From Gammaproteobacteria bacterium (GTDB lineage: Bacteria; Pseudomonadota; Gammaproteobacteria; Burkholderiales; Rhodocyclaceae), in NCBI GenBank assembly GCA_029289235.1, contig JARFTZ010000060.1, positions 62,001 through 126,000 of the forward strand: a stretch of DNA of 64,000 nucleotides. The letters are read 5' to 3'. This document shows, in pieces, positions 35,533 through 56,853 of this stretch (position 1 is its first letter; every line of letters starts with the position of its first letter). The notes below the pieces were generated by a model, which ran no database searches, was not told where the DNA came from, and worked only from the letters and a program-made list of their open reading frames with translations. The position numbers were made by a program, and so were the translations under genes.

Positions 35533-36573
35533 ATGACCACGACCGACTGGACGCCCTCCGCCACCCGTTACGACACGATGCCCTACCGGCGCGCCGGCCA
35601 TAGCGGCCTGAAGCTGCCGGCGCTCTCGTTCGGGATGTGGCACAACTTCGGCCAGAGCGCCGACCCAACCAACGCACGCGCGTTGCTGCGGCGCGCCTTC
35701 GAACTCGGCATCACGCATTTCGACCTGGCCAACAACTACGGCCCGCCGCCCGGAGCCGCCGAGGAGCTGTTCGGTCAAATCCTCGCCAGCGACTTCGCGC
35801 CGCACCGTGACGAACTGATCGTTTCCACCAAGGCCGGCTACCAGATGTGGCCCGGTCCGTACGGCATGGACGGCTCGCGCAAGCACCTGCTCGCCAGCCT
35901 CGACCAGAGCCTGAAGCGCATGAAGCTCGACTACGTGGATATCTTCTACTCGCACCGCTACGACCCGGACACGCCGCTCGAGGAAACGATGGGCGCGCTG
36001 GCCACCGCCGTGCAGCAGGGCAAGGCGCTGTATGTCGGCATTTCCTCCTATTCGGCGAAGAAGACGCGCGAGGCGGCGGCGATCCTCAAGCGAATGGGCG
36101 TGCCCTGCGTGCTGCACCAGCCCTCCTACTCGCTGCTCAACCGCTGGATCGAGGAAGACCTGCTCGACACGCTGCGCGACGAATCGATCGGCTGCATCGT
36201 CTTTTCGCCGCTGGCGCAGGGGTTGCTGACCGGCAAGTATCTCGCCGGCGTCCCGGCCGATTCGCGCAAGGCCAAGGGCGCCGCGTCGTTCCGCGACAAC
36301 TACCTCGAACCGGCGACGCTGGAACGGATTCGCCCGCTGATGGAGATCGCTGAATGGCGGGGACAAACGCTGGCGCAGATGGCGCTGGCCTGGGTGCTGC
36401 GCCAGCCGCAGGTCACCTCGGCACTGATCGGCGCCAGCCGCATCAGCCAACTGGAGGAAAACGTCGCTGCGCTGCATCGACTCGACTTCTCCCCCGAGGA
36501 GTTGGCCGAAATCGACCGCTGGGCGAGCGACGCCAACCTGAACATCTGGGCGGCGTCGAGCAACGCGGGGTGA
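35533..36573 (+). CDS. Aldo/keto reductase (YghZ/glyceraldehyde-3-phosphate reductase type)
   Basis: 346 residues, TIM barrel. The catalytic tetrad is visible in HFDLANNYG (Asp, Tyr), VSTKAGY (Lys) and FYSHRYD (His). The C-terminus has the NADPH-binding IGASRISQLEEN. WHNFGQSADP and PGPYGMDGSRKHL are typical of the YghZ group, which reduces methylglyoxal and L-glyceraldehyde-3-phosphate. I use ATG 35533 (MTTTDWTPSA); the longer frame reads through the palindromic repeat. It follows the alcohol dehydrogenase and is probably under the same AraC control. Confidence 0.9.
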   Translation: MTTTDWTPSATRYDTMPYRRAGHSGLKLPALSFGMWHNFGQSADPTNARALLRRAFELGITHFDLANNYGPPPGAAEELFGQILASDFAPHRDELIVSTKAGYQMWPGPYGMDGSRKHLLASLDQSLKRMKLDYVDIFYSHRYDPDTPLEETMGALATAVQQGKALYVGISSYSAKKTREAAAILKRMGVPCVLHQPSYSLLNRWIEEDLLDTLRDESIGCIVFSPLAQGLLTGKYLAGVPADSRKAKGAASFRDNYLEPATLERIRPLMEIAEWRGQTLAQMALAWVLRQPQVTSALIGASRISQLEENVAALHRLDFSPEELAEIDRWASDANLNIWAASSNAG

Positions 36574-44375: not shown

Positions 44376-44486
44376 AATGAAACGCACAACCACCCACCAC
44401 CCCGTCTGCCCGGCAGTCAATCCGGGCTGTTCCTGCCCCCGTTTTCCGCTTCCTCCCCTTCTTTTCCATTTCAGGAGTCATTGACC

Positions 44487-46379
44487 ATGCAACGCGTAGA
44501 TGTTGGTTTCCAGATCCCTCAGTCCGTTCAGGAAATCCTTGCGGCCTGCCCGAAATACACGGTGGCCTCGAACCGCCAGCAGTTGTTCGAACTGGCCACC
44601 CGCGACGCCGTCAACGGCGTGCATGAGGTCGCCTACGACGTGCCCGGCCGGGGCCGCGTGGTCGAGGCGACCGTCTGCCGCGTAAAGAACGGCATCGCCG
44701 CCAACTACGTCGAACCGTACATGCGCCGCCGCGACCCGGAGTGCATGCTGATCGCCGACGACCAGCCGACCGACAAGCTGCGTTTCGAGGACGAGTTCGG
44801 CGAATCCTTCGAGTCCCTGCGCGCAGAAACCTTCGAGTGGCTGAAGACGCAGGAACTGGCGCTGTTTCCGTTCATCGCCGGCGCACCGGGGATCGGCACC
44901 GACGCGCTGGTCGTGGCGCCGGCGAATGCAGGCTTCTTCGCGCTGGGGCTTGCCCTGCTGCAGGGCATTCTCGATGGGAACGAAATTTCGCCGGACTTCG
45001 ACCCGAAGGCGGTGATCTTCGTCGCGCCGCCGTTCCGCCACACGCACTTCAAGGGCAAGCAGATGGTGGTTCACAACCGCCGCCCGGGCCGGCATGAGTT
45101 GTTCAGCTACAACCTGTACCCGGGACCGAGCGCCAAGAAGGGCATCTACGGCGTGCTGCTCACCCTCGGCGAGCGCGAGGACTGGTTGACCGCGCACTGC
45201 TCGGCGGTACAGGTGATCACGCCTTACGCCAACAAGCTGTGCATCATGCACGAGGGCGCCAGCGGCGGCGGCAAGAGCGAACTCCTCGAACAGGTCCATC
45301 GCCAGTCCGACGGCGGCCTGCTGCTCGGCGTGAATACGCTGACCGGCGAGCGCCGCACGCTGGTGCTGCCGGCCAACTGCGAACTGCGCCCGGTCACCGA
45401 CGACATGGCGCTGTGCCACCCGTCGCTGGCGCGCAACGACGGGCGCCTGGCACTGATGGACGCCGAACAGGGCTGGTTCGTCCGTGTCAATCACATCACC
45501 GACTACGGCACCGACCCCAACCTGGAGCGGATGACCATCCACCCGGTCGAGCCCCTGCTGTTCCTCAACATCGAGGCGCAGCCGGGCAGCACGGCGCTGA
45601 TCTGGGAGCACATTGAGGATGCGCCGGGCAAGCCGTGCCCGAATCCGCGCGTCGTCATCCCGCGCAAAGCCGTTCCCAACATCCACGAGGGCGCGGTGAA
45701 TATCGACGTGCGCAGCTTCGGCGTGCGCTGCCCGCCCTGCACCAGCGAGAACCCGACCTACGGGATCATGGGCCTGTTCCACCTGCTGCCGCCGGCGCTG
45801 GCCTGGCTGTGGCGCCTCGTCGCACCGCGCGGGCACGCCAACCCGAGCATCGTCAGCGTCGAGGGAATGAGTTCGGAAGGCGTCGGCTCCTACTGGCCCT
45901 TCGCGACAGGCCGCATGGTCGACCAAGCCAATCTGCTGTTGCGCCAGATCGTCGATACCCCGAAGGTGAAGTACATCCTGACGCCGAACCAGCATATCGG
46001 CGCGTGGGAAACCGGCTTCATGCCGCAATGGATCGCCCGTGAATACCTCGCGCGTCGCGGCGGCGCCAGGTTCTCAGCCGAGCAGGTGATGCCGTCGCGC
46101 TGCCCGCTGCTCGGCTTCGCGCTGAAGAGCGTGGTCATCGAAGGGCAGACCATCCCGGGCATCATGCTGCGTGTGGAGAAGCAGCCGGAAATCGGCCTCG
46201 CCGGCTACGACGCCGGCGCGCAGATTCTTACGGAGTTTTTCCACAAGGAACTGACGCAATACCTCGAAGACGACCTCGACCCGCTCGGCCGCAAGATCAT
46301 CGAGTGCTGCCTGGCCAACGGCTCGGTCGAGGACTACATGGCGCTGTTGCCACACACCGTCATCAGCGACGATTTGTAA
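44487..46379 (+). CDS. Large PEPCK-like P-loop protein (DUF4914 type)
   Basis: 630 residues, cytoplasmic. The central domain has a P-loop EGASGGGKSE (256-265) preceded by NKLCIMH, and NCELRPVTDDMALCHPS further on. This order and spacing resemble the kinase part of phosphoenolpyruvate carboxykinase. I associate the whole with DUF4914, whose reaction is unknown. GWFVRVNHITDYGTDPN and the Cys pair in VRCPPCTSENPTYG may form parts of a substrate or metal site. It may be an ATP/GTP-dependent carboxykinase or kinase. The 47-bp promoter element ties it to the FadR-type regulator. A strong terminator follows. Confidence 0.68.
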   Translation: MQRVDVGFQIPQSVQEILAACPKYTVASNRQQLFELATRDAVNGVHEVAYDVPGRGRVVEATVCRVKNGIAANYVEPYMRRRDPECMLIADDQPTDKLRFEDEFGESFESLRAETFEWLKTQELALFPFIAGAPGIGTDALVVAPANAGFFALGLALLQGILDGNEISPDFDPKAVIFVAPPFRHTHFKGKQMVVHNRRPGRHELFSYNLYPGPSAKKGIYGVLLTLGEREDWLTAHCSAVQVITPYANKLCIMHEGASGGGKSELLEQVHRQSDGGLLLGVNTLTGERRTLVLPANCELRPVTDDMALCHPSLARNDGRLALMDAEQGWFVRVNHITDYGTDPNLERMTIHPVEPLLFLNIEAQPGSTALIWEHIEDAPGKPCPNPRVVIPRKAVPNIHEGAVNIDVRSFGVRCPPCTSENPTYGIMGLFHLLPPALAWLWRLVAPRGHANPSIVSVEGMSSEGVGSYWPFATGRMVDQANLLLRQIVDTPKVKYILTPNQHIGAWETGFMPQWIAREYLARRGGARFSAEQVMPSRCPLLGFALKSVVIEGQTIPGIMLRVEKQPEIGLAGYDAGAQILTEFFHKELTQYLEDDLDPLGRKIIECCLANGSVEDYMALLPHTVISDDL

Positions 46380-46547: not shown

Positions 46548-46582
46548 TTGCTTTTCAAAAGACGATTAACTAAGATAATCGT
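46548..46582 (+). promoter_or_regulatory. Promoter with overlapping operator of the octaheme cytochrome cluster
   Basis: TTGCTT (46548-46553), a 17-bp spacer and TAAGAT (46571-46576). An inverted repeat ACGATTA-N7-TAATCGT (46562-46582) covers the end of the spacer and the whole -10, a position typical for repressor control. No sigma-54 (-24/-12) box was found in this region. Confidence 0.6.
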
Positions 46583-46653
46583 TATATTAGAGAATAATAA
46601 AATAGTTGAATAAAAAACTCGGGTAATTGAAGAACGAAACGCAAGGAGGGAGT

Positions 46654-48261
46654 ATGGGGCTCGTATCCTTACGGCGTTCGGCCGGATGCGTCCTGGCTGG
46701 ATTGCTGTATCTGCTCGTCGGAACGGGAGCAATCGCCGACGTCAAGCCGCTCAAGCTTGACACGACGGCAGACCATTCCAAATTCAAGGAATTGCAGCAG
46801 GAATTCCAGTCCGGTAGCGAGGTCACCAAGGCGTGCCTGAGCTGTCACACCGAGGCCTCGAAACAGATTCACCAGACCCTTCACTGGAAGTGGGATATCA
46901 CCAATCCGGCGACCGGCCAGGAACTCGGCAAGCGGAACGTCATCAACAATTTCTGTACCTCCGCGCCCTCAAACCACAAAGCCTGCGCGTCCTGCCACAT
47001 CGGCTATGGCATGAGCGAGACCTTCGACTTTACCGCCCAGGAGAACGTCGACTGTCTCGTCTGCCACGAAACGACCGGCAGATACAAGAAACCCGGCGGT
47101 TTTGCCGGCAACCCCGTCGTCAAGGACACCGAGTTTCCGCCCAAGTCCGGAAAAATCATCAAGGGTATTGATCTGGCGCCTATCGCCCAGAGCGTCGCCA
47201 AGACCCGCCGCCAGAACTGCGGGACCTGCCACTTTTACGGTGGCGGCGGCGATGGCGTCAAGCACGGCGACCTCGACAGTTCGCTCGACAATCCGGACAA
47301 GGAACTCGATGTACACATGGCCAAAAACGGCCTGAACTTCACCTGCACAACCTGCCACAAGACCGAGGGCCACCAGGTGCCGGGCAGCCGTTATGAGACA
47401 ACCGGCATGGACAACCACGCCGCGCTGATGCGCGGCAAGCCGGACGACAAGGGGCGCAACACGGCCACCTGCCAGTCCTGCCACGGACAGGAGCCGCACA
47501 AACAACAGGCCAAGCTGAACGATCACACCGACAAGGTCGCCTGCCAGACCTGCCACATTCCGGAATTTGCCCGCGGCGACGTTCCGACCAAGATGCATTG
47601 GGACTGGTCGACGGCCGGCAAGCGCGACAAGAACGGCAAACCGCTGGTCGTCAGGGACGATGAGGGCTACGAAACGTATCTTGGCATCAAGGGCGACTTC
47701 AAGTGGGAAACCAACGTCAAGCCGAATTACATCTGGCTCAACGGCGTTAACAAATACACGTTAGCCAACGACAAGATCGACAAATCGCAGCAGCCGATTT
47801 ACATCAACAAGTACGAGGGCAGCCCGACCGACGGCAAGTCCCTGATCTGGCCGATCAAGACTTTTACCGGCAAGCAACCGTTTGATCCGGAAAACAAGAC
47901 GCTGGTAGTGACCCACCTGGCCGGCGCCGACGATACCGCTTACTGGACCAACCTTGACTGGGACAAGGCCGTTGCCGCCGGCATGAAGACCGCCGGCCGG
48001 CCGTTCTCCGGGAAGATCGATTTCATCGAAACCATCTCCCAGTGGCCGATCACGCACATGGTCGCTCCCAAGGACAAGGCGCTGGCCTGCAACGAGTGTC
48101 ACAGCAAGAGTGGTCGCCTTGCCGAGATCAAAGGCGTCTATATCCCGGGGCGTGATGCGAACGACCTGGTCGACACCTTCGGCTGGGGGATCGCCTTCTT
48201 TGCCTTCGCAGGATCGCTCGGCCACGGCCTGATGCGCGTCTTTTCCCGCCGCAAGCACTGA
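46654..48261 (+). CDS. Octaheme c-type cytochrome (tetrathionate-reductase family, OTR-like)
   Basis: 535 residues, exported by an N-terminal signal (RRSAGCVLAGLLYLLVGTGAIA). Eight CxxCH haem sites begin at Cys 61, 111, 134, 189, 231, 273, 297 and 479. Cys101 just before the second site recalls the conserved active-site Cys of Shewanella OTR. OTR reduces tetrathionate, nitrite and hydroxylamine in vitro, but its physiological substrate is unsettled. A C-terminal hydrophobic segment (GWGIAFFAFAGSLGHGLM) followed by RRKH suggests membrane anchoring. ATG 46654 has AAGGAGG upstream; the TTG at 46627 is rejected. First gene of the cluster. Confidence 0.9.
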   Translation: MGLVSLRRSAGCVLAGLLYLLVGTGAIADVKPLKLDTTADHSKFKELQQEFQSGSEVTKACLSCHTEASKQIHQTLHWKWDITNPATGQELGKRNVINNFCTSAPSNHKACASCHIGYGMSETFDFTAQENVDCLVCHETTGRYKKPGGFAGNPVVKDTEFPPKSGKIIKGIDLAPIAQSVAKTRRQNCGTCHFYGGGGDGVKHGDLDSSLDNPDKELDVHMAKNGLNFTCTTCHKTEGHQVPGSRYETTGMDNHAALMRGKPDDKGRNTATCQSCHGQEPHKQQAKLNDHTDKVACQTCHIPEFARGDVPTKMHWDWSTAGKRDKNGKPLVVRDDEGYETYLGIKGDFKWETNVKPNYIWLNGVNKYTLANDKIDKSQQPIYINKYEGSPTDGKSLIWPIKTFTGKQPFDPENKTLVVTHLAGADDTAYWTNLDWDKAVAAGMKTAGRPFSGKIDFIETISQWPITHMVAPKDKALACNECHSKSGRLAEIKGVYIPGRDANDLVDTFGWGIAFFAFAGSLGHGLMRVFSRRKH

Positions 48262-48272
48262 GGAGAACGAAA

Positions 48273-48869
48273 ATGGCTGAACGCATTTATATCTTCAAGC
48301 GCTTCGAGCGTTTCTGGCACTGGTCGCAGGCAGCACTGATCATGTTCATGATGCTGACCGGCTTCGAAATCCACGGCACCTATTCGCTCTTCGGCTTCGC
48401 CGCGGCGGTCAGTTACCACGGCATAGCGGCATGGACGCTGATCGGCCTGTGGATTTTCGCCGTCTTCTGGCACCTGACGACCGGTGAATGGCGGCACTAC
48501 ATCCCGACGACGGAAAAGGTATTGCTGATCGCCCAGTACTACTCATCCGGAATCTTCAAGAACGAGCCGCACCCGTTCAAACCGACTCTGCAGAGCAAGC
48601 ACAATCCGCTGCAACGGCTGACCTACCTTGGAATCCTGGTTTTTGTCAGCCCATTGATCTGGATCACCGGTTTTCTGTACCTGTTCTACAACGACTGGAC
48701 CGCGTGGGGGCTGACCGACCTGCAACTCGACTGGGTCGCAACCGGCCACACGATTGGCGCCTTCCTGATGCTGGCCTTCCTGGTATCCCACCTCTACCTG
48801 GCAACAACCGGACACACGCCAACAGCGCACATCAAGGCGATGATTACCGGTTGGGAAGAGGCCGACTAA
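48273..48869 (+). CDS. Cytochrome b561-type membrane subunit
   Basis: 198 residues with four membrane segments and His residues placed for two b haems (FWHWSQ, SYHGIAAW, FWHLTTG, TGHTIG, SHLYLATTGH). It resembles the cytochrome b subunits of formate dehydrogenase, Ni-hydrogenase and thiosulfate reductase, which exchange electrons between quinone and a periplasmic partner. It starts 11 bases after the octaheme cytochrome with GAGGAGA upstream, so it is the likely quinol oxidase partner of that protein. Confidence 0.87.
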   Translation: MAERIYIFKRFERFWHWSQAALIMFMMLTGFEIHGTYSLFGFAAAVSYHGIAAWTLIGLWIFAVFWHLTTGEWRHYIPTTEKVLLIAQYYSSGIFKNEPHPFKPTLQSKHNPLQRLTYLGILVFVSPLIWITGFLYLFYNDWTAWGLTDLQLDWVATGHTIGAFLMLAFLVSHLYLATTGHTPTAHIKAMITGWEEAD

Positions 48870-48918
48870 GAGAAATCGGCCCGAAAAAAGATTCGCAAAC
48901 AAATCCTGGAGGGAAATC

Positions 48919-50667
48919 ATGGGGAAGAAACACGCTTCTCGGAGGTTCATTGCGTGCATTGTCGGCAGTCTCTTTTTGCCGCTTGGTACGCAGGCTTCGG
49001 AAGCCGAGTTGCTGAAGAAGCTCGAAGCGATGCAGAAGGAGATCGAGCAGCTGAGGGCCATGGTGCAGAACAACCAGGCGAGCCAGGAAGCCACCAAGCA
49101 GGCCACGACCGAACTGAAGGAAAAGGTGCAACGCGCCGAAGACAAGTCGTCCGAAAAGTGGCTGACGGTCGGCGGCGACTATGAATTCCGGGCAGACAGC
49201 CTGCGCGGGGAAACGAAGACGTATACCGACGTTGGCGCAACCTTCGCCAATGCGGGGGATCAAATTCAGGCCGCGTTTTTCGCTAATCCGAGTGCCCAGA
49301 ACGCAGCCATGCTAAGTGGACTGATGGCCTTTTCCGAGGGAATGGCCGGCGTCAAAACCTATCAGCAGGCGCAGCAGTTCCTTGCCACTCCGGCGAACCA
49401 GCAGATGATTGCCGGCCTGAACAATTACGCCGTCTCCGTTCCCTCCTACAAGCCGAAAAACTCGTCGCTATACACCCACCGCTTCGGCCTGGACCTCAAC
49501 GCGCGCGCCACGCAGGACGTCTCGGTTTCCGCCCGCCTGCTGATGTACAAGACCTGGGGCGCGTCGGATGACGACGCCGTCACCAACGGCGGCTCCACGC
49601 CCTTCTTTGCCGACCGGGTCGGTGTGTTCGATGGCACGCTGGGCCATATTCCGTCCAGCGACTATGTAAATGTCGACCGTGCCTATGCCACCTGGAGCAA
49701 TATCGCCGACCAGGACATCTGGTTCTCCGTCGGTCGCCGGCCGTCCACCAACGGCACGCCGTCGCACCTGCGGTACAACATGTCGACGCCGGGACGCGGG
49801 GGGATTCCTTCGCTGCTCGTCGATTACGCCTTCGACGGCATGACGATCGGCTGGGGACCGGATATCGACGACCTGCCGGGCGCGTACGCCAAACTCTGCT
49901 TCGGGCGCGGCTACGAGAGTGGCTATACGGACAATCCGCTGGCCGAATCGCTCAAGGACACCGACTTCGTCGGTGTCCAGATCGTCCCGATCGATACCGA
50001 CGCGCTGCGTGTCTGGACGCAATGGAACCGCGGCATCAATATTTTTGACGCCCCCAAGATGAGCAACACCTATTACGGCGACACCATGCCGAAGGTCAAT
50101 CTGGGCGACATCGACTGGCTCGGCGCAGGCGCCATGGGGACGATCAAGAACGTCGGTATCGGCGACCTGAACTACTTCGTCGACCTCGCCATGAGCAAGA
50201 CGCATCCGAACAATAATGTGTCGTCGCAGTTCGGCTTCCAAGGCCTACTCACCGGCGCCTTCTTCGAACCAGAAGCACCGCAGGACAAGACCGGCCGCGC
50301 CATTTATCTGGGTCTTCGCTACGACCTGCCTTCAAAAACCAAACTGGGCTTCGAATATAACTACGGCTCGAAGAACTGGATCACCTTCGCTCCGGCGTCC
50401 AGCGATATCTGGACCTCCAAGGTCGGCACACGCGGCAATGTCTACGAGGTTTACCTGATCCAGGAACTCGACGCCAAACCGATCTCGTCGTTCGCGGCCA
50501 AGAGCTTTTTCCGGCTTGGTTTCCAGTACTACGATTTCCAATACACAGGGAGCAACAACTGGGTTGGCGCACCAGTCAAGATCTCCAGCCTGAACAACAA
50601 CATGATGACCACCACGCCACTGTCCAAGGCCATCAACGCCTACGCGACATTTACCGTGAAATTCTGA
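48919..50667 (+). CDS. Outer-membrane beta-barrel with N-terminal coiled coil (DUF3373-like)
   Basis: 582 residues. Signal peptide to about residue 26, then a coiled coil (about 28-75: ELLKKLEAMQKEIEQLRAMVQ). The remainder is rich in alternating aromatic/polar beta strands and ends in TFTVKF with a terminal Phe, as outer-membrane barrels do. I associate this pattern with DUF3373-type porins found beside multihaem cytochromes. It may admit the oxyanion substrate or help electrons cross the outer membrane. GGAGGG precedes the ATG. Confidence 0.8.
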   Translation: MGKKHASRRFIACIVGSLFLPLGTQASEAELLKKLEAMQKEIEQLRAMVQNNQASQEATKQATTELKEKVQRAEDKSSEKWLTVGGDYEFRADSLRGETKTYTDVGATFANAGDQIQAAFFANPSAQNAAMLSGLMAFSEGMAGVKTYQQAQQFLATPANQQMIAGLNNYAVSVPSYKPKNSSLYTHRFGLDLNARATQDVSVSARLLMYKTWGASDDDAVTNGGSTPFFADRVGVFDGTLGHIPSSDYVNVDRAYATWSNIADQDIWFSVGRRPSTNGTPSHLRYNMSTPGRGGIPSLLVDYAFDGMTIGWGPDIDDLPGAYAKLCFGRGYESGYTDNPLAESLKDTDFVGVQIVPIDTDALRVWTQWNRGINIFDAPKMSNTYYGDTMPKVNLGDIDWLGAGAMGTIKNVGIGDLNYFVDLAMSKTHPNNNVSSQFGFQGLLTGAFFEPEAPQDKTGRAIYLGLRYDLPSKTKLGFEYNYGSKNWITFAPASSDIWTSKVGTRGNVYEVYLIQELDAKPISSFAAKSFFRLGFQYYDFQYTGSNNWVGAPVKISSLNNNMMTTTPLSKAINAYATFTVKF

Positions 50668-50690
50668 TTTTTTTATCAAAGGAGCCTCAA

Positions 50691-51014
50691 ATGCCCAAGT
50701 ACTTCTCCCGCCTCTTGTGTTCGGCCGCTCTGGCAGTTTCCGCCATGACCGTCGCAGTACCCGCCTCCGCCGCCGATGTAAAAATGGTCGGCGTGGTCGA
50801 GAAAATTCAGTTGGCTGCTGACGGCAAGTCTGCCCAGACAACCCTGAAGGACATCAAATCGGGAAACCCCGTCGTCATTTTCATTGATGATGACGAAACG
50901 CTCGCCAAGTTCAAGGACAAGCGTATCGGCGTCGGCGACGAAATTCGCACGAAATTCGACGACGCCGGTGGAAAGAACCACAGCAAGTCGTTCAAGAAGA
51001 CCGCCGGTTGCTAG
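50691..51014 (+). CDS. Small periplasmic protein of unknown function
   Basis: 107 residues. Signal peptide (SRLLCSAALAVSAMTVAVPASA, cleavage before ADVKM) followed by a compact beta-rich domain (VVEKIQLAADGKSAQTTLKDI, then GDEIRTKFDDAGG). No haem or metal motif; one C-terminal Cys. AAAGGAG is upstream and the porin gene ends 23 bases before. It may be an accessory or substrate-binding factor of the cytochrome system. A terminator follows directly. Confidence 0.75.
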   Translation: MPKYFSRLLCSAALAVSAMTVAVPASAADVKMVGVVEKIQLAADGKSAQTTLKDIKSGNPVVIFIDDDETLAKFKDKRIGVGDEIRTKFDDAGGKNHSKSFKKTAGC

Positions 51015-51049
51015 ACCGCACGGGTTTTCATCGACAGAAAAATGAGAAT

Positions 51050-51077
51050 GGCGACCCGCATCGGTCGCCTTTTTTTT
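51050..51077 (+). terminator. Intrinsic terminator after the small periplasmic protein gene
   Basis: Stem GGCGACC / GGTCGCC with a six-base loop and a run of eight T. It separates the cytochrome genes from the rhodanese gene, which would need read-through or a promoter of its own. Confidence 0.9.
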
Positions 51078-51111
51078 GCAAATTGAAATCCATGCATTTT
51101 TAGGAGGCACT

Positions 51112-52254
51112 ATGAACTGCAAACGCGCCGTGGTCATTACCACCCTGCTTGCTGCCCTTGGAGCAGCACCCCTCGTTTTCAGCACATCCAGCGCACTCGC
51201 CGCCGAACTACCGGCTGGACTCGTCGCGAAAGACGGCTGGTACACCCAGATTGTCGATGCTGCGTTTGTTGAACGCTACGCGGTTCTGCCCAAGCCGGAA
51301 GGCGTGATGATCATCGATTCACGTCCGACGACGCGCAAGTACGACCCCGGTCACATTCCGACCGCGATCAACATCCCCGACACGCAGTTCGACAAGCTGA
51401 CCGACCAGTTGCCGCAAGACAAGAACACACTGCTGATCTTCTACTGTGAAGGCGTGGAGTGTTCGCTCAGTCACAGCTCGGCATTCAAGGCGGAAAAACT
51501 CGGCTACACCAACATCAAGGTTTACGCCGAGGGCTACCCGGACTGGATCGCCAAGGGCCATCTCGGTGCCGTTTCCGTTCCATTCCTGAAGAAGAGGATG
51601 GACGACGGTGCGCCCATTACGGTCATTGATTCGCGTCCGAAGAAGCGCAAGTACGACCTCGGACACATCCCCGGCGCCATCAGCCTGCCCGACTCCGAGT
51701 TCAACAAGCGGGTTGATGCTCTGCCGGCCGACAAGGCCAGCGAGTTGTATTTTTACTGTGAGGGGCTGGCCTGCACGCTCAGTTCCGACTCTGCGGCCAA
51801 GGCGGTCAAACTGGGCTACACAAAAGTCAAGGTCGTCCCGGAGGGGTATCCGAAATGGGCGAAACTCTACGGCCCTGGCCCCACCAGCGGCGAACCGGTA
51901 GCAAGCAAGCCCGTTGTCCAGGCCGGCCGTGATCCGGCGACGATCACCGTCGAATCGTTCAAGAACATCCTGCGTGACGCACCGGAGTCTCTCTTCCTCG
52001 TCGACGTTCGGCCGCAAAAGGATTTCGACAAGGGAACGATCAAGGGGGCAGTCAACATGCCCCTCGACACCCTGGAATCGCATCTGGGCGAACTGCCAAA
52101 GGACAAAACGACAGTCTTCTTTTGTTCAAGCGGCGCGCGCAGCAGCGATGCCTATGATCTGGCCAAGGAGAAAAAGGTATCGAGCCCGTTCTATTTTCTG
52201 GATGCCACGGTGAAATATGCCGGGGACGGAAATTACACCATCAGCAACGATTGA
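51112..52254 (+). CDS. Exported triple-rhodanese-domain protein
   Basis: 380 residues. Signal peptide to about residue 31 (SALAAELPAG), then three rhodanese domains at about 45-145, 150-245 and 275-375. Each keeps a catalytic Cys: Cys112 in FYCEGVEC, Cys216 in FYCEGLAC and Cys338 in FFCSSGAR. Domains 1 and 2 are alike (DSRPTTRKYDPGHIP; DSRPKKRKYDLGHIP), pointing to duplication. It should transfer sulfane sulfur or selenium in the periplasm, matching a sulfur/selenium oxyanion pathway. AGGAGG precedes the ATG; the upstream TTG at 51076 lies in the terminator and is rejected. Confidence 0.9.
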   Translation: MNCKRAVVITTLLAALGAAPLVFSTSSALAAELPAGLVAKDGWYTQIVDAAFVERYAVLPKPEGVMIIDSRPTTRKYDPGHIPTAINIPDTQFDKLTDQLPQDKNTLLIFYCEGVECSLSHSSAFKAEKLGYTNIKVYAEGYPDWIAKGHLGAVSVPFLKKRMDDGAPITVIDSRPKKRKYDLGHIPGAISLPDSEFNKRVDALPADKASELYFYCEGLACTLSSDSAAKAVKLGYTKVKVVPEGYPKWAKLYGPGPTSGEPVASKPVVQAGRDPATITVESFKNILRDAPESLFLVDVRPQKDFDKGTIKGAVNMPLDTLESHLGELPKDKTTVFFCSSGARSSDAYDLAKEKKVSSPFYFLDATVKYAGDGNYTISND

Positions 52255-52281
52255 TCCCCGATCAGCAAACAACAAAAAAAT

Positions 52282-52321
52282 AACCCCCCGGCTTGAGATG
52301 GGGACTCAGTCCCGGGGGGTT
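52282..52321 (-). terminator. Hairpin terminator read by the minus strand
   Basis: Perfect 10-bp stem AACCCCCCGG / CCGGGGGGTT. On the minus strand it is followed by TATTTTTTT; on the plus strand there is no T run. It is placed to end the small gene at 52384-52557; from the + strand it could also limit the rhodanese message. Confidence 0.75.
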
Positions 52322-52383
52322 CTACTGCAAAACCTTGCAGGTTCGGTGCCAGGCAACCTTTCCTGGTCCGCCCCTGTTTCACT

Positions 52384-52557
52384 TCAATGCTGGCTGAACA
52401 CTCGCCTGATTCGCAGCGTCAGTTCCTTGCAGCAACGGCAGGTGACGCAGGGAATGATCAATGGAATGGCGCCGATCAAGGCAGCAACGAGAATCGGAGC
52501 CAGCGTAATGACGTGCGCTATCTGTACTGCGTTGTGTCGGAAGGTCTGAGCGGTCAT
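52384..52557 (-). CDS. Small Cys-rich membrane protein
   Basis: 57 residues. One hydrophobic helix (VITLAPILVAALIGAIPLIIP) is followed directly by a cysteine cluster, CVTCRCC, and a basic tail (LRIRRVF). AGGAG lies seven bases before the ATG at 52557, and a terminator with a T run follows the stop. These signals support translation despite the small size. It is antisense to no other gene and sits between the rhodanese and sigma-54 regulator genes. It could bind a metal or haem, or act as a membrane redox factor. I recognise no family. Confidence 0.5.
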   Translation of the reverse strand: MTAQTFRHNAVQIAHVITLAPILVAALIGAIPLIIPCVTCRCCKELTLRIRRVFSQH

Positions 52558-52752
52558 GGCAAACTCCTGTGTTACGGGTTCACCCACAATCAATCAATTA
52601 TCGTGCCAGCTTTCCGGATTCCGGATTTCTTTCGCAACCCACTGATACCAAATAACAAACTGCGCAATTTTCAGGAACCTCGATAACCCCCGTGCGCTGC
52701 AGCGTCAAATATGGCAGCAAAAACCCAGACATCCACTATATTTACGCCATAA

Positions 52753-54102
52753 ATGACACTCCCCAGAAAAATAATGGATTACCCCGTAAAGTCACTGCCG
52801 GAGCTCGTTTCGTTTCTCGACGAGCAGGTTGAACCGCGTATCGTCATGGATGCCGAGTACCGCATCGTCGCCGCGAACAGGGCCTATGCCGAAGCGTTCG
52901 CTCCGGGCGGTTCGGTGGCGGGTCGCCACTGCTATGAAGTCTCGCACCATTTTTCAGCCCCCTGCGACCAGGCCGGCGAGCCCTGCCCGTTACGGATGAG
53001 CCAGGAAAGCGGCGAGGTTCAGCGCGTCCTGCATCTGCACCACACGGCGCACGGCGAAGAGCATGTCGACGTCGAAACGACCCCGATCCGCGACGAGGCG
53101 GGAAAAATCATCTACTTCGTCGAAACCATGCGCGTGCTCAAGCAGGCGTCGGGCAGTCCGGCGGCGGAAGGACTGGTTGGACGGTCGGCGAGCTTCAAGA
53201 AGATGCTGTCGCTGGCCATGCGCGTCGCCCCGACAAACGCCACTGTCCTGCTGCTCGGCGAAACGGGAACCGGCAAGGAACTGGTCGCGCGCATGCTGCA
53301 CGAAACAGGCAGAAACGCCGGCGGTCCGTTCGTGGCGGTCGACTGCTCCGGACTGACCGAATCGTTGTTCGAGAGCGAACTGTTCGGCTACGAGAAAGGT
53401 GCCTTTACCGGTGCCCAGCATCGCAAAACCGGCCTTGTCGAATCCGCCCGGGGGGGAACGCTCTTTCTCGACGAAGTTGGCGACATCCCGCTGCCACAGC
53501 AGGTCAAACTGTTGCGCCTGCTGGAGAGCGGCACCTACCGACGCGTAGGAAGTGTCGAAACGTTGCGCGCCGATTTCCGCCTGATCTGCGCAACCCACCG
53601 CAACATCGACCGGTTGGTCGAAGAGGAAGCCTTCCGGCGCGACCTCTTTCACCGAATCAGCACCTTCCCGATCCATGTCCCGTCACTCGCCGAACGGGTG
53701 GAGGATATCCCACTGCTGGCGGACTCATTCCTCAAGCGCGTTGCCGTCGGGCAAAACCTGAGGCTGTCTGAATCAGCCATTGAAGCACTCAAACACCGCC
53801 GCTACCTCGGAAACATTCGCGAACTGCGCAATCTGATCGAGCGTGCCACGATTCTCGCCGACGGCGAAGCCATCAACGAAAAGCATTTCGAGATGGACAC
53901 TCTGCCGAACAAAATGCTGACCGAATGCAGCCCCCCCACCAGCGATCGCTTTGTCATCGACACCCTGCTCCCGCTCGAAGAAGTCGAGCGACGCTATATC
54001 GACTGGGCGGCCCACCGTCTTCCGGGCGACAGAACCTTGCTGGCGCGACAACTGGCTGTCAGTCTACGCACGCTCTATCGCAAGCTGTCAAAAACCAGAT
54101 AG
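52753..54102 (+). CDS. Sigma-54-dependent transcriptional activator with Cys-bearing PAS domain
   Basis: 449 residues. An N-terminal PAS domain (about 20-125) contains [20 protein letters not shown] with Cys60, Cys71 and Cys78. The AAA+ domain has Walker A GETGTGKE (169-176), GAFTGA (216-221) for sigma-54 contact and FLDEVGDI. The C-terminal Fis-type helix-turn-helix ends in [16 protein letters not shown]. The cysteines may sense redox state or bind a cofactor. It follows the cytochrome-rhodanese locus, so it may control it, although the cytochrome promoter looks like sigma-70. ATG 52774 is an alternative start. Confidence 0.9.
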
Positions 54103-54112
54103 TTTTCTTGCT

Positions 54113-54850
54113 TCATTCGTTGCGCAGCACGACAAGTTGCCCGGGGTGCTTCTCCGGTCTTTCATACAACACCCACCGATAGCAGAACACGCAGATCGTC
54201 CAGTCGAACAACAGGGTCCACAGATTGTGTGAGAGAAAATGCGCGCCCTGCATCATTCGTCCGACTGAAAACACCGCCCCCGCCCCCAGAGCGACCCACA
54301 GGGCAATGCGAGCTGTCCGTGGTCGCCGGTCGCGCAGGAAGAAGAACAAGGCGAGCAGCGAAAACCCCGCCGAGGCGTGACCACCCGGCCAGCAGCGGCC
54401 GGGATGCGTGGTCGCCGGACGCGCGCCGAGCAAGGGTGCGTAGTTTTCCTCCCCGCCGAACTCAGTCAGGCTCCAGGGGCACTGAATGGCCGTGATCTTC
54501 TTCAGTGGTGTGACGATGCTCGTCGACAAGCCCATGGCCAAAACCAGATAACCGAGCGGGCGGCGCCAGGAGCGCCAACGGGAACGCAGCAGACTGACCA
54601 GAAAACCGGCCAACGCGAGCACCGCAAAGACAATCAGCATCTGCTTTGCCCGGTCGTGGAGAATGTCTTCAAGCCAGAAACTGTGCCGGCCGACGAACCC
54701 CTCACCGGGAACATAAAAGAGGCGTTCCAGCCAGAAATCCAGACCGGCGATGTCGAAAAGCAGCAGAAACGCCATCAGCAACAGAGGAATGCCAAGGCCG
54801 AGGCGGAAATCAAAATGACGCGACACAGAATCACGCGAGAGGGACATCAT
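54113..54850 (-). CDS. PAP2-family phosphatase
   Basis: 245 residues, about six membrane segments. The three PAP2 phosphatase motifs are present in a variant form: KKITAIQCPW (Cys in place of the usual Arg), PGGHASAGF and GRMMQGAHFLSH. This variant pattern is, as I recall, shared by a subfamily in gram-negative bacteria. It probably removes phosphate from lipid A, undecaprenyl diphosphate or another lipid. The ATG at 54850 overlaps the upstream sulfatase stop (ATGA), so the two are coupled and may act on the same envelope substrate. Confidence 0.85.
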   Translation of the reverse strand: MMSLSRDSVSRHFDFRLGLGIPLLLMAFLLLFDIAGLDFWLERLFYVPGEGFVGRHSFWLEDILHDRAKQMLIVFAVLALAGFLVSLLRSRWRSWRRPLGYLVLAMGLSTSIVTPLKKITAIQCPWSLTEFGGEENYAPLLGARPATTHPGRCWPGGHASAGFSLLALFFFLRDRRPRTARIALWVALGAGAVFSVGRMMQGAHFLSHNLWTLLFDWTICVFCYRWVLYERPEKHPGQLVVLRNE

Positions 54851-56853
54851 CAGCCTCCGGATAACCGATTCGCTACGGGAGAAGCCATGAGGGCTGCCTC
54901 GGTCAAGCGCATCGCCACATCGTTCTCGGGCTGCCAGGCCAGCAGCCCCTTGCGGAAATCGTGACTGGCGCCCTGATAGTAGGCGACATTGCGTCGTACC
55001 AGCGCGTCCGACGTATCGGCGACGACCTCGCGACTGTTGCCAAGCGCATCCTGGTGGCGGCGCACGGCTTTTCGGGGGCTGAGGATGGCGAGGTCGGTAC
55101 CGTCGAAAAGGCCCAGATGCTGGTAGTTGCCGACCAGCGCCCGGCCGCGGCCGGGATCTTCCGTCATCACGTTGCGTCCGAAAAATGTCGAGGTGTAATC
55201 GAAATTCAGGAGCCCGAGCAAGGTCGGCGCGAGATCGATCTGGCTGGCAACCGTTGCCACATCGCGCGGAGGGAGAAGCGAAGGCGCGTAAATGAACAGC
55301 GGGATGTGGTAGTTGGCGACCGGCAGATCCTCCTTGCCCGCGCTGCCGGCGGTGTGGTCGGCGACGAAGACGAAGACGGTCTTGTCAAACCACGGCTTTT
55401 GTCGCGCCTCGGCAAGGAAGCGGCCGATCGCGTAATCCGTGTATTTCACCGCGCCTTCACGCCCCTTGCCGGAGGGGATGTCGATGCGGCCGTCCGGGTA
55501 GGTGTAGGGACGATGGTTGGAGGTCGTCATCAGTTGCAGGAAGAACGGCTTTCCGGCGGCGTGGTCGGCATCGGCGACCTTCAACGTTTGTCGGTAGAGA
55601 TCCTCGTCGGACATCCCCCACGCGTTGGTGAAGTTCATCTCCGCGTCCGGGACGCTGCTCTGGTCGACGATGCGGTAGCCGTTGCCGCCGAAGAAGGCGT
55701 TCATGTTGTCGAAGTAGCCGCGCCCGCCGTAAAGGAACACACTGTCGTAACCCTTCGCGTGGAAATGCTGGCCGAGGCTGGCATAGCCGGATTCGCGTCC
55801 GATGCGCTTGACGATCGAGCGGCCGGGCGTCGGCGGCACCGCCAGGGTAATCGCCTCCAGGCCGCGGTCGGTGCGGGTTCCGGTCGCGTAGAAGTTGCTG
55901 AAAGCGAGGCTCTGTTCGCGCAGCTTGTCGAGGTTCGGCGTCAGGCCGCGCTTGTCGCCGAAGCTGCCGAGGTACTTGGCGCTCAGGCTCTCGATCGTCA
56001 CCAGAATGACATTCAGTCGTCGCGGCGATCCTGGGTTGTCGATCACCCGGCGGATGTCCTGCGGGTCGCTGCCGATGAAGCGTGCATTGGGTTCCGCCAG
56101 TTCGTCGCGCAGCAAGCCGGCGACCTGCTCTCCCGGCAACGTGGCATAGAACTGCCGGTAATCGAGTTCGTTGTTGCGGAACGCGGCGAAGAACTGGAAG
56201 GGGCCGTTGCTGGCCAATTCGCTCTGATAGGCGTTGCCACCCTGCCCACGCGGAAAGTCCTGCCCCAGCAGCGCCGCGCTCAACGCCACAAGCGAAACCA
56301 GACCGGCCGCGCCCGCGAATCTCGCCGATTTCGTCGTCAATGAGGAGGAATGCAGGATCGCGCTGAGACGTTTTCCCAGACCGACCGTGATGGCGACCGC
56401 CAGCAACACCAACGTCCCGAGAATCCGGAAGACCGGATATGACTCGACGATGTTGTTGACGACCTCCTTCGAATAGACAAGGTAATCGACCGCGATGAAA
56501 TTGAAGCGCACGCCGAATTCGTCCCAGAACACCCACTCGGCCACCGCCGTGAACAGCATGACGAACAGGAGTAAACCGAAAATGACGTGCAGCGCCACCC
56601 TATGCCAGCGCGCCCGCCAGAGCCCGTTCGGGCAAAGCAAGGCATACAGGGCCAGCGGCACGGCGGCGTAAACAAGAAAGCCCAGATCGTAAACCAAGCC
56701 AACGCCGAAGATTCGAAGCGAATCGATCACGCCGGCTTGCGCATCTCTCCAATGCGCAGCGAGCAACACGCTGCGCGTCAGGACAAAAACGCCCAGCCAC
56801 GCGCCCAGAATCAGCATGACGTAACGAAACTGGCTGGTCCGGAAAACAGACAT
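54850..56853 (-). CDS. LTA-synthase-like membrane sulfatase/phosphotransferase (second copy)
   Basis: 667 residues with about five N-terminal membrane segments and a periplasmic alkaline-phosphatase fold. NVILVTIESLSAKY has the metal Glu, FYATGTRTDRGLEAIT the Thr nucleophile, and FVADHTAG the Asp-His metal ligands. It is related to but different from the copy at 37582. Family members transfer phosphoglycerol or phosphoethanolamine groups onto envelope glycans. It is translationally coupled to a PAP2 phosphatase, which could remove the lipid by-product phosphate. Confidence 0.86.
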   Translation of the reverse strand: MSVFRTSQFRYVMLILGAWLGVFVLTRSVLLAAHWRDAQAGVIDSLRIFGVGLVYDLGFLVYAAVPLALYALLCPNGLWRARWHRVALHVIFGLLLFVMLFTAVAEWVFWDEFGVRFNFIAVDYLVYSKEVVNNIVESYPVFRILGTLVLLAVAITVGLGKRLSAILHSSSLTTKSARFAGAAGLVSLVALSAALLGQDFPRGQGGNAYQSELASNGPFQFFAAFRNNELDYRQFYATLPGEQVAGLLRDELAEPNARFIGSDPQDIRRVIDNPGSPRRLNVILVTIESLSAKYLGSFGDKRGLTPNLDKLREQSLAFSNFYATGTRTDRGLEAITLAVPPTPGRSIVKRIGRESGYASLGQHFHAKGYDSVFLYGGRGYFDNMNAFFGGNGYRIVDQSSVPDAEMNFTNAWGMSDEDLYRQTLKVADADHAAGKPFFLQLMTTSNHRPYTYPDGRIDIPSGKGREGAVKYTDYAIGRFLAEARQKPWFDKTVFVFVADHTAGSAGKEDLPVANYHIPLFIYAPSLLPPRDVATVASQIDLAPTLLGLLNFDYTSTFFGRNVMTEDPGRGRALVGNYQHLGLFDGTDLAILSPRKAVRRHQDALGNSREVVADTSDALVRRNVAYYQGASHDFRKGLLAWQPENDVAMRLTEAALMASPVANRLSGG

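Follow-up and report, generated by a model that had tools for sequence, protein, structure and literature searches.

A co-directional locus in a Rhodocyclaceae genome encoding an octaheme cytochrome, a b-type cytochrome, an outer-membrane barrel and a triple rhodanese, and its possible part in periplasmic sulfur chemistry

To our knowledge, the physiological role of the octaheme cytochromes of the Otr family is still open. Genome papers have tied these proteins sometimes to nitrite and sometimes to sulfur compounds (for sulfur, PMC10376724). The locus described here encodes such a cytochrome and lies on contig JARFTZ010000060.1 of a Gammaproteobacteria bacterium of the Rhodocyclaceae (assembly GCA_029289235.1), within a stretch of 64,000 nucleotides that we call the window. 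Open reading frame (ORF) calls and domain scans place an octaheme cytochrome (OCT), a cytochrome b561-type subunit (CYB), a DUF3373 barrel (BAR), a small secreted protein (SML), a terminator-like hairpin, a triple-domain rhodanese (RHO) and a sigma-54 activator, in that order, on the + strand between positions 46654 and 54102 (Table 1); this co-directional arrangement had been proposed from a sequence-only reading, and every element of it is confirmed. From gene associations and predicted active-site residues we incline to the view that the locus encodes a periplasmic module, linked to quinone, that works on sulfane sulfur, whether as polysulfide, thiosulfate or polythionate.

Otr of Shewanella oneidensis (PDB 1sp3) shares with OCT the family, the eight hemes and the equivalents of Lys153 and Cys64. 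In the 12 Shewanella loci that we fetched, among which S. oneidensis MR-1 does not figure, a DUF3373 gene precedes that of the octaheme in 11 (the DUF3373 gene is split over two frames in L148 and is missing from L141; L numbers are our locus labels), but all 12 are without cytochrome b and rhodanese by the searches used, and a monoheme cytochrome with a penultimate cysteine stands in the place of SML. The Geobacter extHIJKL cluster, compared by its description, likewise brings together a rhodanese, an outer-membrane barrel, a small periplasmic protein (104 aa) and a multiheme cytochrome, although ExtK is a pentaheme and ExtH a lipoprotein (PMC6148476; PMC5877670). The Psr operon of Desulfurivibrio dismutans, which includes a secreted triple rhodanese, is strongly upregulated during sulfur disproportionation, and the authors propose an import route made up of a porin, rhodaneses in the periplasm and YeeE/YedE (PMC12142623). 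That operon, also compared by description and not by sequence, resembles the window locus in joining a secreted triple rhodanese to a quinone-linked sulfur enzyme, but the enzyme is a molybdoenzyme rather than an octaheme (PMC12142623). None of the nine window proteins scanned has the molybdopterin domain of a Psr, Phs or Ttr system. An MtrCAB-type conduit to outside metals was considered and set aside, as OCT is the only called gene with CxxCH between window positions 36000 and 60000 and the locus has no outer cytochrome.

OCT exceeds the curated TIGR04315 (octaheme_Shew) cut-off of 375 bits with a score of 631.5 and has eight CxxCH motifs, which places it in the Otr family. The closest structure in the PDB is that of Otr itself (1sp3, E 1.6e-104), the sole PDB relative at E 0.001. 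When residues are counted along this alignment, with window numbering from the TTG of the called ORF, OCT keeps both special residues of Otr, namely a predicted lysine heme ligand at residue 212, opposite Lys153, which is reported to bind the catalytic heme (Mowat 2004), and a non-heme cysteine at residue 110, opposite Cys64. Both are widely conserved: when 107 octahemes, none shorter than 380 aa, are aligned, the Cys64 column holds Cys in 103 (the remainder being three gaps and one Ser) and the Lys153 column holds Lys in 104. Cys and Lys are also aligned in nine distant octaheme relatives found by way of SML, a tenth row being without the Cys region, although this is weaker support since the aligned Cys sits in a different motif.

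The Cys64 position is further distinguished in the Desulfobacterota. Across 297 genomes of this phylum, that of Desulfomicrobium, 59 places exceed the cut-off of TIGR04315, and 21 of them carry exactly one in-frame TGA. We fetched 40 of these loci (all 21 with TGA, 19 without), and in the alignment the TGA falls at the Cys64 column in 21/21, while the TGA-free genes have Cys there in 19/19. A hairpin lies just downstream of the TGA. In most of the genes it reads CTGGTGC-AGGT-GCACCAG or varies slightly from this, and three UGA genes have a different one of the GCAACGA-GGC-TCGTTGC type. The mean folding z-score is -1.33 for the 21 UGA forms against -0.05 for the 19 Cys forms (Mann-Whitney p = 4e-4, an optimistic value given that the sequences are related and the single z-scores modest). 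Selenocysteine (Sec) thus appears to take the place of the conserved non-heme cysteine in these octahemes. It is the position of Sec that is new here, Sec itself being already listed; the entry in a 2026 review is for a GenBank-annotated selenoprotein of the octaheme family, its position not stated in the part consulted (PMC13188914). Presence of selB was discarded as a check on the reading of UGA as Sec: it is found over the cut-off in 19/20 UGA genomes and also in 16/17 genomes with only Cys forms seen, and does not discriminate because Cys-form genomes have it too and at least two of the 20 hold both forms. The second Cys of an SNWC motif near the Sec was likewise dropped as a resolving cysteine, its codon lying inside the hairpin. 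Just upstream of three Sec-octaheme genes (L193, L194 and L203) are ORFs of 113-127 aa which by eye are ArsR-like and have an HA[AS]FC segment.

A different kind of evidence comes from the company that SML keeps. A search for SML-like proteins in 294 genomes of the same phylum gave 23 matches, of which four weak ones were left aside; one of the 19 strong ones (E 1.5e-17 or better) belongs to L215, and for the remaining 18 the surrounding sequence was retrieved as well. BAR adjoins SML in 10 of these 18 loci and an octaheme relative does so in eight, at 158-195 bits to the octaheme profile built in this analysis; the single relative scanned against NCBIfam, that of L252, reaches 162 bits to TIGR04315, below the cut-off. 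The loci in which BAR-SML adjoins an octaheme relative are L215, L252-L254 and L257-L260. In L256, L261 and L262, what comes behind BAR-SML-RHO is instead a molybdopterin subunit together with NrfD and an FeS protein, in varying order, assignments that come from family scans of all products in L262 and of the rhodanese, molybdopterin and NrfD proteins in L256, with L261 read by eye. Against PhsA (cut-off 694), two of the molybdopterin subunits reach 520 and 552 bits, and the three rhodaneses each bear one CxxCH. Barrel, small protein and rhodanese thus behave as a portable set serving either a molybdoenzyme of the thiosulfate/polysulfide type or an octaheme, with the octaheme and the PhsA/Psr-type reductase occupying a shared gene slot. 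The three molybdoenzyme operons end with genes for Lys/Ala-rich small secreted proteins that have an SGC end (L256:15415-15630, L261:15892-16257, L262:15375-15581).

SML has no Pfam match. Its structure model (pLDDT 79) is built as strands-helix-strands, and a fold search of it against the PDB gave nothing at E 1e-3 or better; the best of the weak matches are OB folds of telomerase, primosome and tRNA-synthetase proteins, with CusF/SilF and CcmE lower, so that an OB-like fold is a hint only. A fold search for BAR was set aside, its AlphaFold model being too poor (mean pLDDT 49.5). DUF3373 is nearly absent from the literature, the name occurring in two papers in a full-text search; one of them, in the part available, puts it in transporter family 1.B.62 with a value of 18, which we read as the number of strands.

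SoxYZ and DsrC carry sulfur on a cysteine of a C-terminal arm, and SoxY has a GGCGG end. SML, with its proposed sulfur-bearing C-terminal Cys, would be like them in this, but no sequence relation was found (no Pfam match, an OB-like model), and it ends in TAGC. This TAGC end is present in 7/7 close relatives, window included, and a terminal Cys in 11/11 relatives of a first set and 16/18 of a more distant second set. Other proteins near octahemes have comparable tails. The monoheme cytochrome MONO3 has a penultimate Cys in 37/38 (the exception, L145, ends early), and a DUF302 protein (D302) has a terminal Cys in 9/9, with a glycine-rich stretch before it in most and with eight called directly upstream of the octaheme. 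The loci of the DUF302 protein with its Gly-Cys tail are L034, L035, L040, L041, L043 (the one scanned), L047, L096, L098 and L102. Bacteroidales rhodaneses have a Cys tail in 8/8 and a second kind of rhodanese in 7/8, while YeeE-rhodanese fusions have Cys among the last three residues in 10/14. No such tail is found in BAR (0/23), long YeeE/YedE (0/17) or OCT (0/173 ORFs), and CYB has it in 2/111; these loci hold 1753 other called genes with 90 aa or more, of which 31 have Cys in the last two residues and 14 have it as the last. Within 6 kb, SML, MONO3, D302 and the GGC-rhodanese/YeeE set never occur as two kinds in a locus, except in L118. We place no p-value on these tails, the loci being related and not independent; the argument depends on the sharing of the trait by at least four families without detected relation. 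A literature search gave no paper that brings together three or more of the four subjects octaheme, C-terminal cysteine, GGCGG and SoxY.

The wider gene neighbourhoods were examined in 151 octaheme loci, made up of 70 named loci, a class sample of 38, the 40 from Desulfobacterota, L074 and L075 of the order, and the window, with neighbour families found by profiles built in this analysis. The 70 named loci were found with OCT itself and are biased towards its relatives; the class sample consists of five places below the cut-off and of all those above it (34) except the window itself, hence 33. CYB is within 5 kb of the octaheme in 49/70 named, 32/38 class and 30/40 Desulfobacterota loci, and within the same distance the named loci have MONO3 in 34, rhodanese in 31, YeeE/YedE (PF04143 in the representatives scanned) in 27, the DUF3373 barrel in 17 and SML in six. 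Rhodanese or YeeE/YedE recur beside octahemes in Pseudomonadota, Bacteroidota and Chloroflexota. In an order-level sample of 200 genomes, apparently the same for both searches, 18 have the octaheme and four a RHO-type rhodanese, all within the 18 (p = 4.7e-5); in three of the four (window, L074 and L075) the rhodanese is within 3 kb of the octaheme gene, and the fourth (L076) has no octaheme within the 20 kb fetched. The adjacency of octaheme and rhodanese is not new in itself because gene clusters of Dethiobacter that contain rhodaneses and SirA-like octahemes have already been published (PMC10376724). In a tree of 80 octahemes, in which several branches are long and placement is unsure, OCT groups with Propionivibrio dicarboxylicus L084, with the other BAR-bearing loci L085, L087, L088 and L152 and with L111 (on a contig of only 3.6 kb), nested in a larger rhodanese/YeeE/YedE clade. 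The BAR label requires five gains or losses on this tree, at least four of them on starred branches; L089, which has BAR, is off the tree as the gene caller missed its octaheme. The common core is the octaheme and cytochrome b, with barrel, carrier, rhodanese and YeeE/YedE as mixed add-ons, and the idea that the exact gene set forms a fixed pathway does not hold: neither barrel nor rhodanese is within 6 kb in 100/151 loci (some stretches being short), which is what the sequence-only reading had said would count against it.

In the mechanism that we propose, the DUF3373 barrel would pass a sulfur compound across the outer membrane, and the triple rhodanese and the OB-like SML would hold cysteine-bound sulfane sulfur or S-sulfonate, in SML on the C-terminal cysteine. 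This tail cysteine would present the sulfur to the Cys/lysine-heme site of the octaheme, which may cleave or form an S-S bond at the lysine-ligated heme, where the cysteine close by would act as nucleophile, exchanging electrons with quinol via the b-type subunit. Genes, active-site residues, gene associations and the conserved tail cysteine are seen directly in the DNA and its translations; for barrel transport, the carrier role of SML, the substrate and the direction, we infer.

Reduction is the somewhat more likely direction. Were it reversed, the octaheme would oxidise carrier-bound or free sulfane sulfur, in the manner of SoxXA and TsdA, and the b-type subunit would pass electrons to quinone; we hold this to be rather unlikely, although rhodanese/YeeE/YedE loci are found in Sulfurisoma sediminicola (L097), Thiobacillus (L114) and Sulfuricellaceae (L108), lineages with names to which a sulfur-oxidising lifestyle attaches. 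Close loci also occur in Propionivibrio and Shewanella, which are fermenting and respiring anaerobes, and BAR-SML-RHO is common to reductase-type molybdoenzymes, though those can run backwards too. TsdA, a heme-cysteine thiosulfate enzyme whose known bidirectionality speaks for oxidation, runs both ways (PMC6879331; PMC5146829). A literature search gave no paper joining tetrathionate reductase, thiosulfate and Propionivibrio. It seems improbable that the locus, as a counterpart of Geobacter extHIJKL, acts on selenite, tellurite or some other oxyanion of a chalcogen. The Geobacter cluster has a predicted-Sec cytochrome as well as its rhodanese, barrel and 104-aa protein, and loss of extI impairs selenite and tellurite reduction (PMC6148476; PMC5877670), but Sec in an octaheme would mark the position of a reactive thiol and not a selenium substrate, and the YeeE/YedE neighbour of L103, the sole one scanned, scores 115 bits to selenium YedE/FdhT against 103 to TsuA, both below cut-off. 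The sequence-only reading had suggested a quinol-driven periplasmic system for a sulfur or selenium oxyanion, with the rhodanese handling the reduced product; a quinone-linked periplasmic sulfur (or selenium) system is supported by gene associations in several phyla and the conserved Otr active site, whereas the oxyanion substrate, the reductive flow and the action of rhodanese on the octaheme product go beyond that support.

Several observations weigh against a sulfane-sulfur module. Rhodanese is within 5 kb of the octaheme in only 3/38 class and 1/40 Desulfobacterota loci, and YeeE/YedE in 1/38 and 0/40; in 63/151 loci (37 of them flanked by over 4 kb of sequence both ways, 26 by less) there is cytochrome b without any of the searched add-ons within 6 kb. 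Sulfur add-ons are therefore not universal among octaheme loci and may reflect some branches. No YeeE/YedE gene is found beside OCT, and the window genome has a single weak match at 35 bits (cut-off 27). DUF3373 occurs in 4/369 genomes of the class, and in the three besides the window's (L081-L083) BAR is near an SML relative with no octaheme in the stretch. One genome (G776) has five solitary SML-like genes with GC ends (L263, L264, L266, L268 and L269), around which the fetched stretches gave no barrel, octaheme or rhodanese matches. The two relatives of the second SML set that lack the terminal Cys end in Glu (L265:9254-9640 and L267:9273-10088), near distant proteins with five CxxCH, and window-type RHO has a Cys tail in 0/30. 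Otr, moreover, reduces nitrite and hydroxylamine too (PMC4484225). This activity and the 63 loci with cytochrome b alone would suit a nitrite or hydroxylamine reductase to which barrel and rhodanese are functionally unlinked neighbours; we think this very improbable, given the repeated gain or loss of BAR on the tree and the recurrence of rhodanese or YeeE/YedE beside octahemes of three phyla. The comparison favours sulfane-sulfur over nitrogen chemistry because of the rhodanese and YeeE/YedE neighbours, the apparent Sec at Cys64, the slot shared with PhsA/Psr and the cysteine tails.

The features of the locus are collected in Table 1. The called ORF of OCT is 46627-48261, in which the TTG start at 46627 adds nine residues; ATG 46654, preceded by AAGGAGGG, is the better start. 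A hydrophobic stretch close to the OCT C-terminus is visible by eye and is below the threshold of the computed scan. CYB scores 127 bits to the PhsC-like NF011582 (cut-off 204), and its His residues 16, 34, 49, 100, 159 and 173 are conserved in 67-68/70. Intergenic gaps are 11 bp (OCT-CYB), 49 (CYB-BAR), 23 (BAR-SML), 97 (SML-RHO) and 498 (RHO-activator). The hairpin behind SML is the best-looking of 15 sites in a terminator scan of the region, a number at chance level (13.1 expected by shuffling). RHO probably starts at ATG 51112 because TTG 51076 sits right behind the hairpin. In RHO the loops of domains 1 and 2 are of the form CEGxxC and that of domain 3 is CSSGAR; of the 32 members of the rhodanese cluster, 23 have one or more C-x4-C loops and 21 have two, the nine without being eight Bacteroidales proteins and that of L115. 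To the selenoprotein TsoB (NF045694), which is listed with UxxxxU, RHO with its CxxxxC loops scores 122 bits, short of the cut-off of 805.

Table 1. Features of the octaheme locus, in window positions
Feature	Position	Strand	Evidence
OCT, octaheme c-type cytochrome, TIGR04315, N-terminal signal	46654..48261	+	631.5 bits, eight CxxCH
OCT non-heme Cys, residue 110 from TTG, aligned with Otr Cys64	46954..46956	+	1sp3 alignment
OCT Lys, residue 212 from TTG, in GGGGDGVKHGD, aligned with Otr Lys153	47260..47262	+	1sp3 alignment
CYB, cytochrome b561-type membrane subunit, presumed quinone link	48273..48869	+	PF01292, 88.2 bits
BAR, DUF3373 outer-membrane barrel, N-terminal coiled coil	48919..50667	+	PF11853, 493.9 bits
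SML, 107-aa secreted protein, conserved C-terminal Cys codon 51009-51011	50691..51014	+	TAGC end, OB-like model
Intrinsic-terminator-like hairpin, then eight T	51050..51069	+	hairpin scan
RHO, secreted triple-domain rhodanese	51112..52254	+	three PF00581 stretches
57-aa hydrophobic peptide ORF between RHO and activator	52384..52557	-	conserved in L086, same place
PAS-AAA-HTH sigma-54 activator, probable regulator	52753..54102	+	PAS_4, Sigma54_activat, AAA lid, HTH_8

The minus-strand ORF of 57 aa and the conserved C-terminal Cys of SML are additions to the earlier description; the peptide is 58% identical over 52 aa (E 1.3e-8) to its counterpart in one relative, L086, where a close activator homologue (775 bits) also lies behind RHO. 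Activators are within 3 kb of OCT in 16/151 loci, a count that those of the window, at 4.5 kb, and of L086, at 3.2 kb, are too far away to enter. A simple scan gave no convincing -24/-12 promoter upstream of the octaheme, rhodanese and activator genes. An anti-phage role of the activator was rejected, the PADLOC matches being mainly to RtcR/PspF-type CARF_AAA_HTH proteins (best 313 bits) over the AAA-HTH part only. Rfam finds three tRNAs in the window and nothing else. Directly upstream of the locus is a gene for a DUF4914 protein (1052 bits; 44478-46379, + strand), for which no link to the locus is seen. Downstream, on the - strand (54113-56853), a lipid-A-phosphatase-like PAP2 phosphatase (99 bits, cut-off 275) adjoins a 667-aa membrane protein that by eye has the look of a sulfatase-type transferase.

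For the family as a whole we would suggest, only tentatively, that Otr-type octahemes depend on carriers, the natural substrate being sulfane sulfur or S-sulfonate on the C-terminal Cys of an interchangeable protein that docks at the Cys/Sec-lysine-heme site. It is conceivable, with the same reserve, that the carrier is an OB-like protein, a monoheme cytochrome, a DUF302 protein or a rhodanese according to the locus, and tetrathionate, nitrite and hydroxylamine might then be side substrates. If this is true, the proteins with cysteine tails would have converged on one role, that of sulfur carriers in the periplasm, and Psr-type systems would share this class. The sharing of the Psr/Phs slot, the UGA at Cys64 and the cysteine-tailed partners offer concrete predictions on the open role of Otr.

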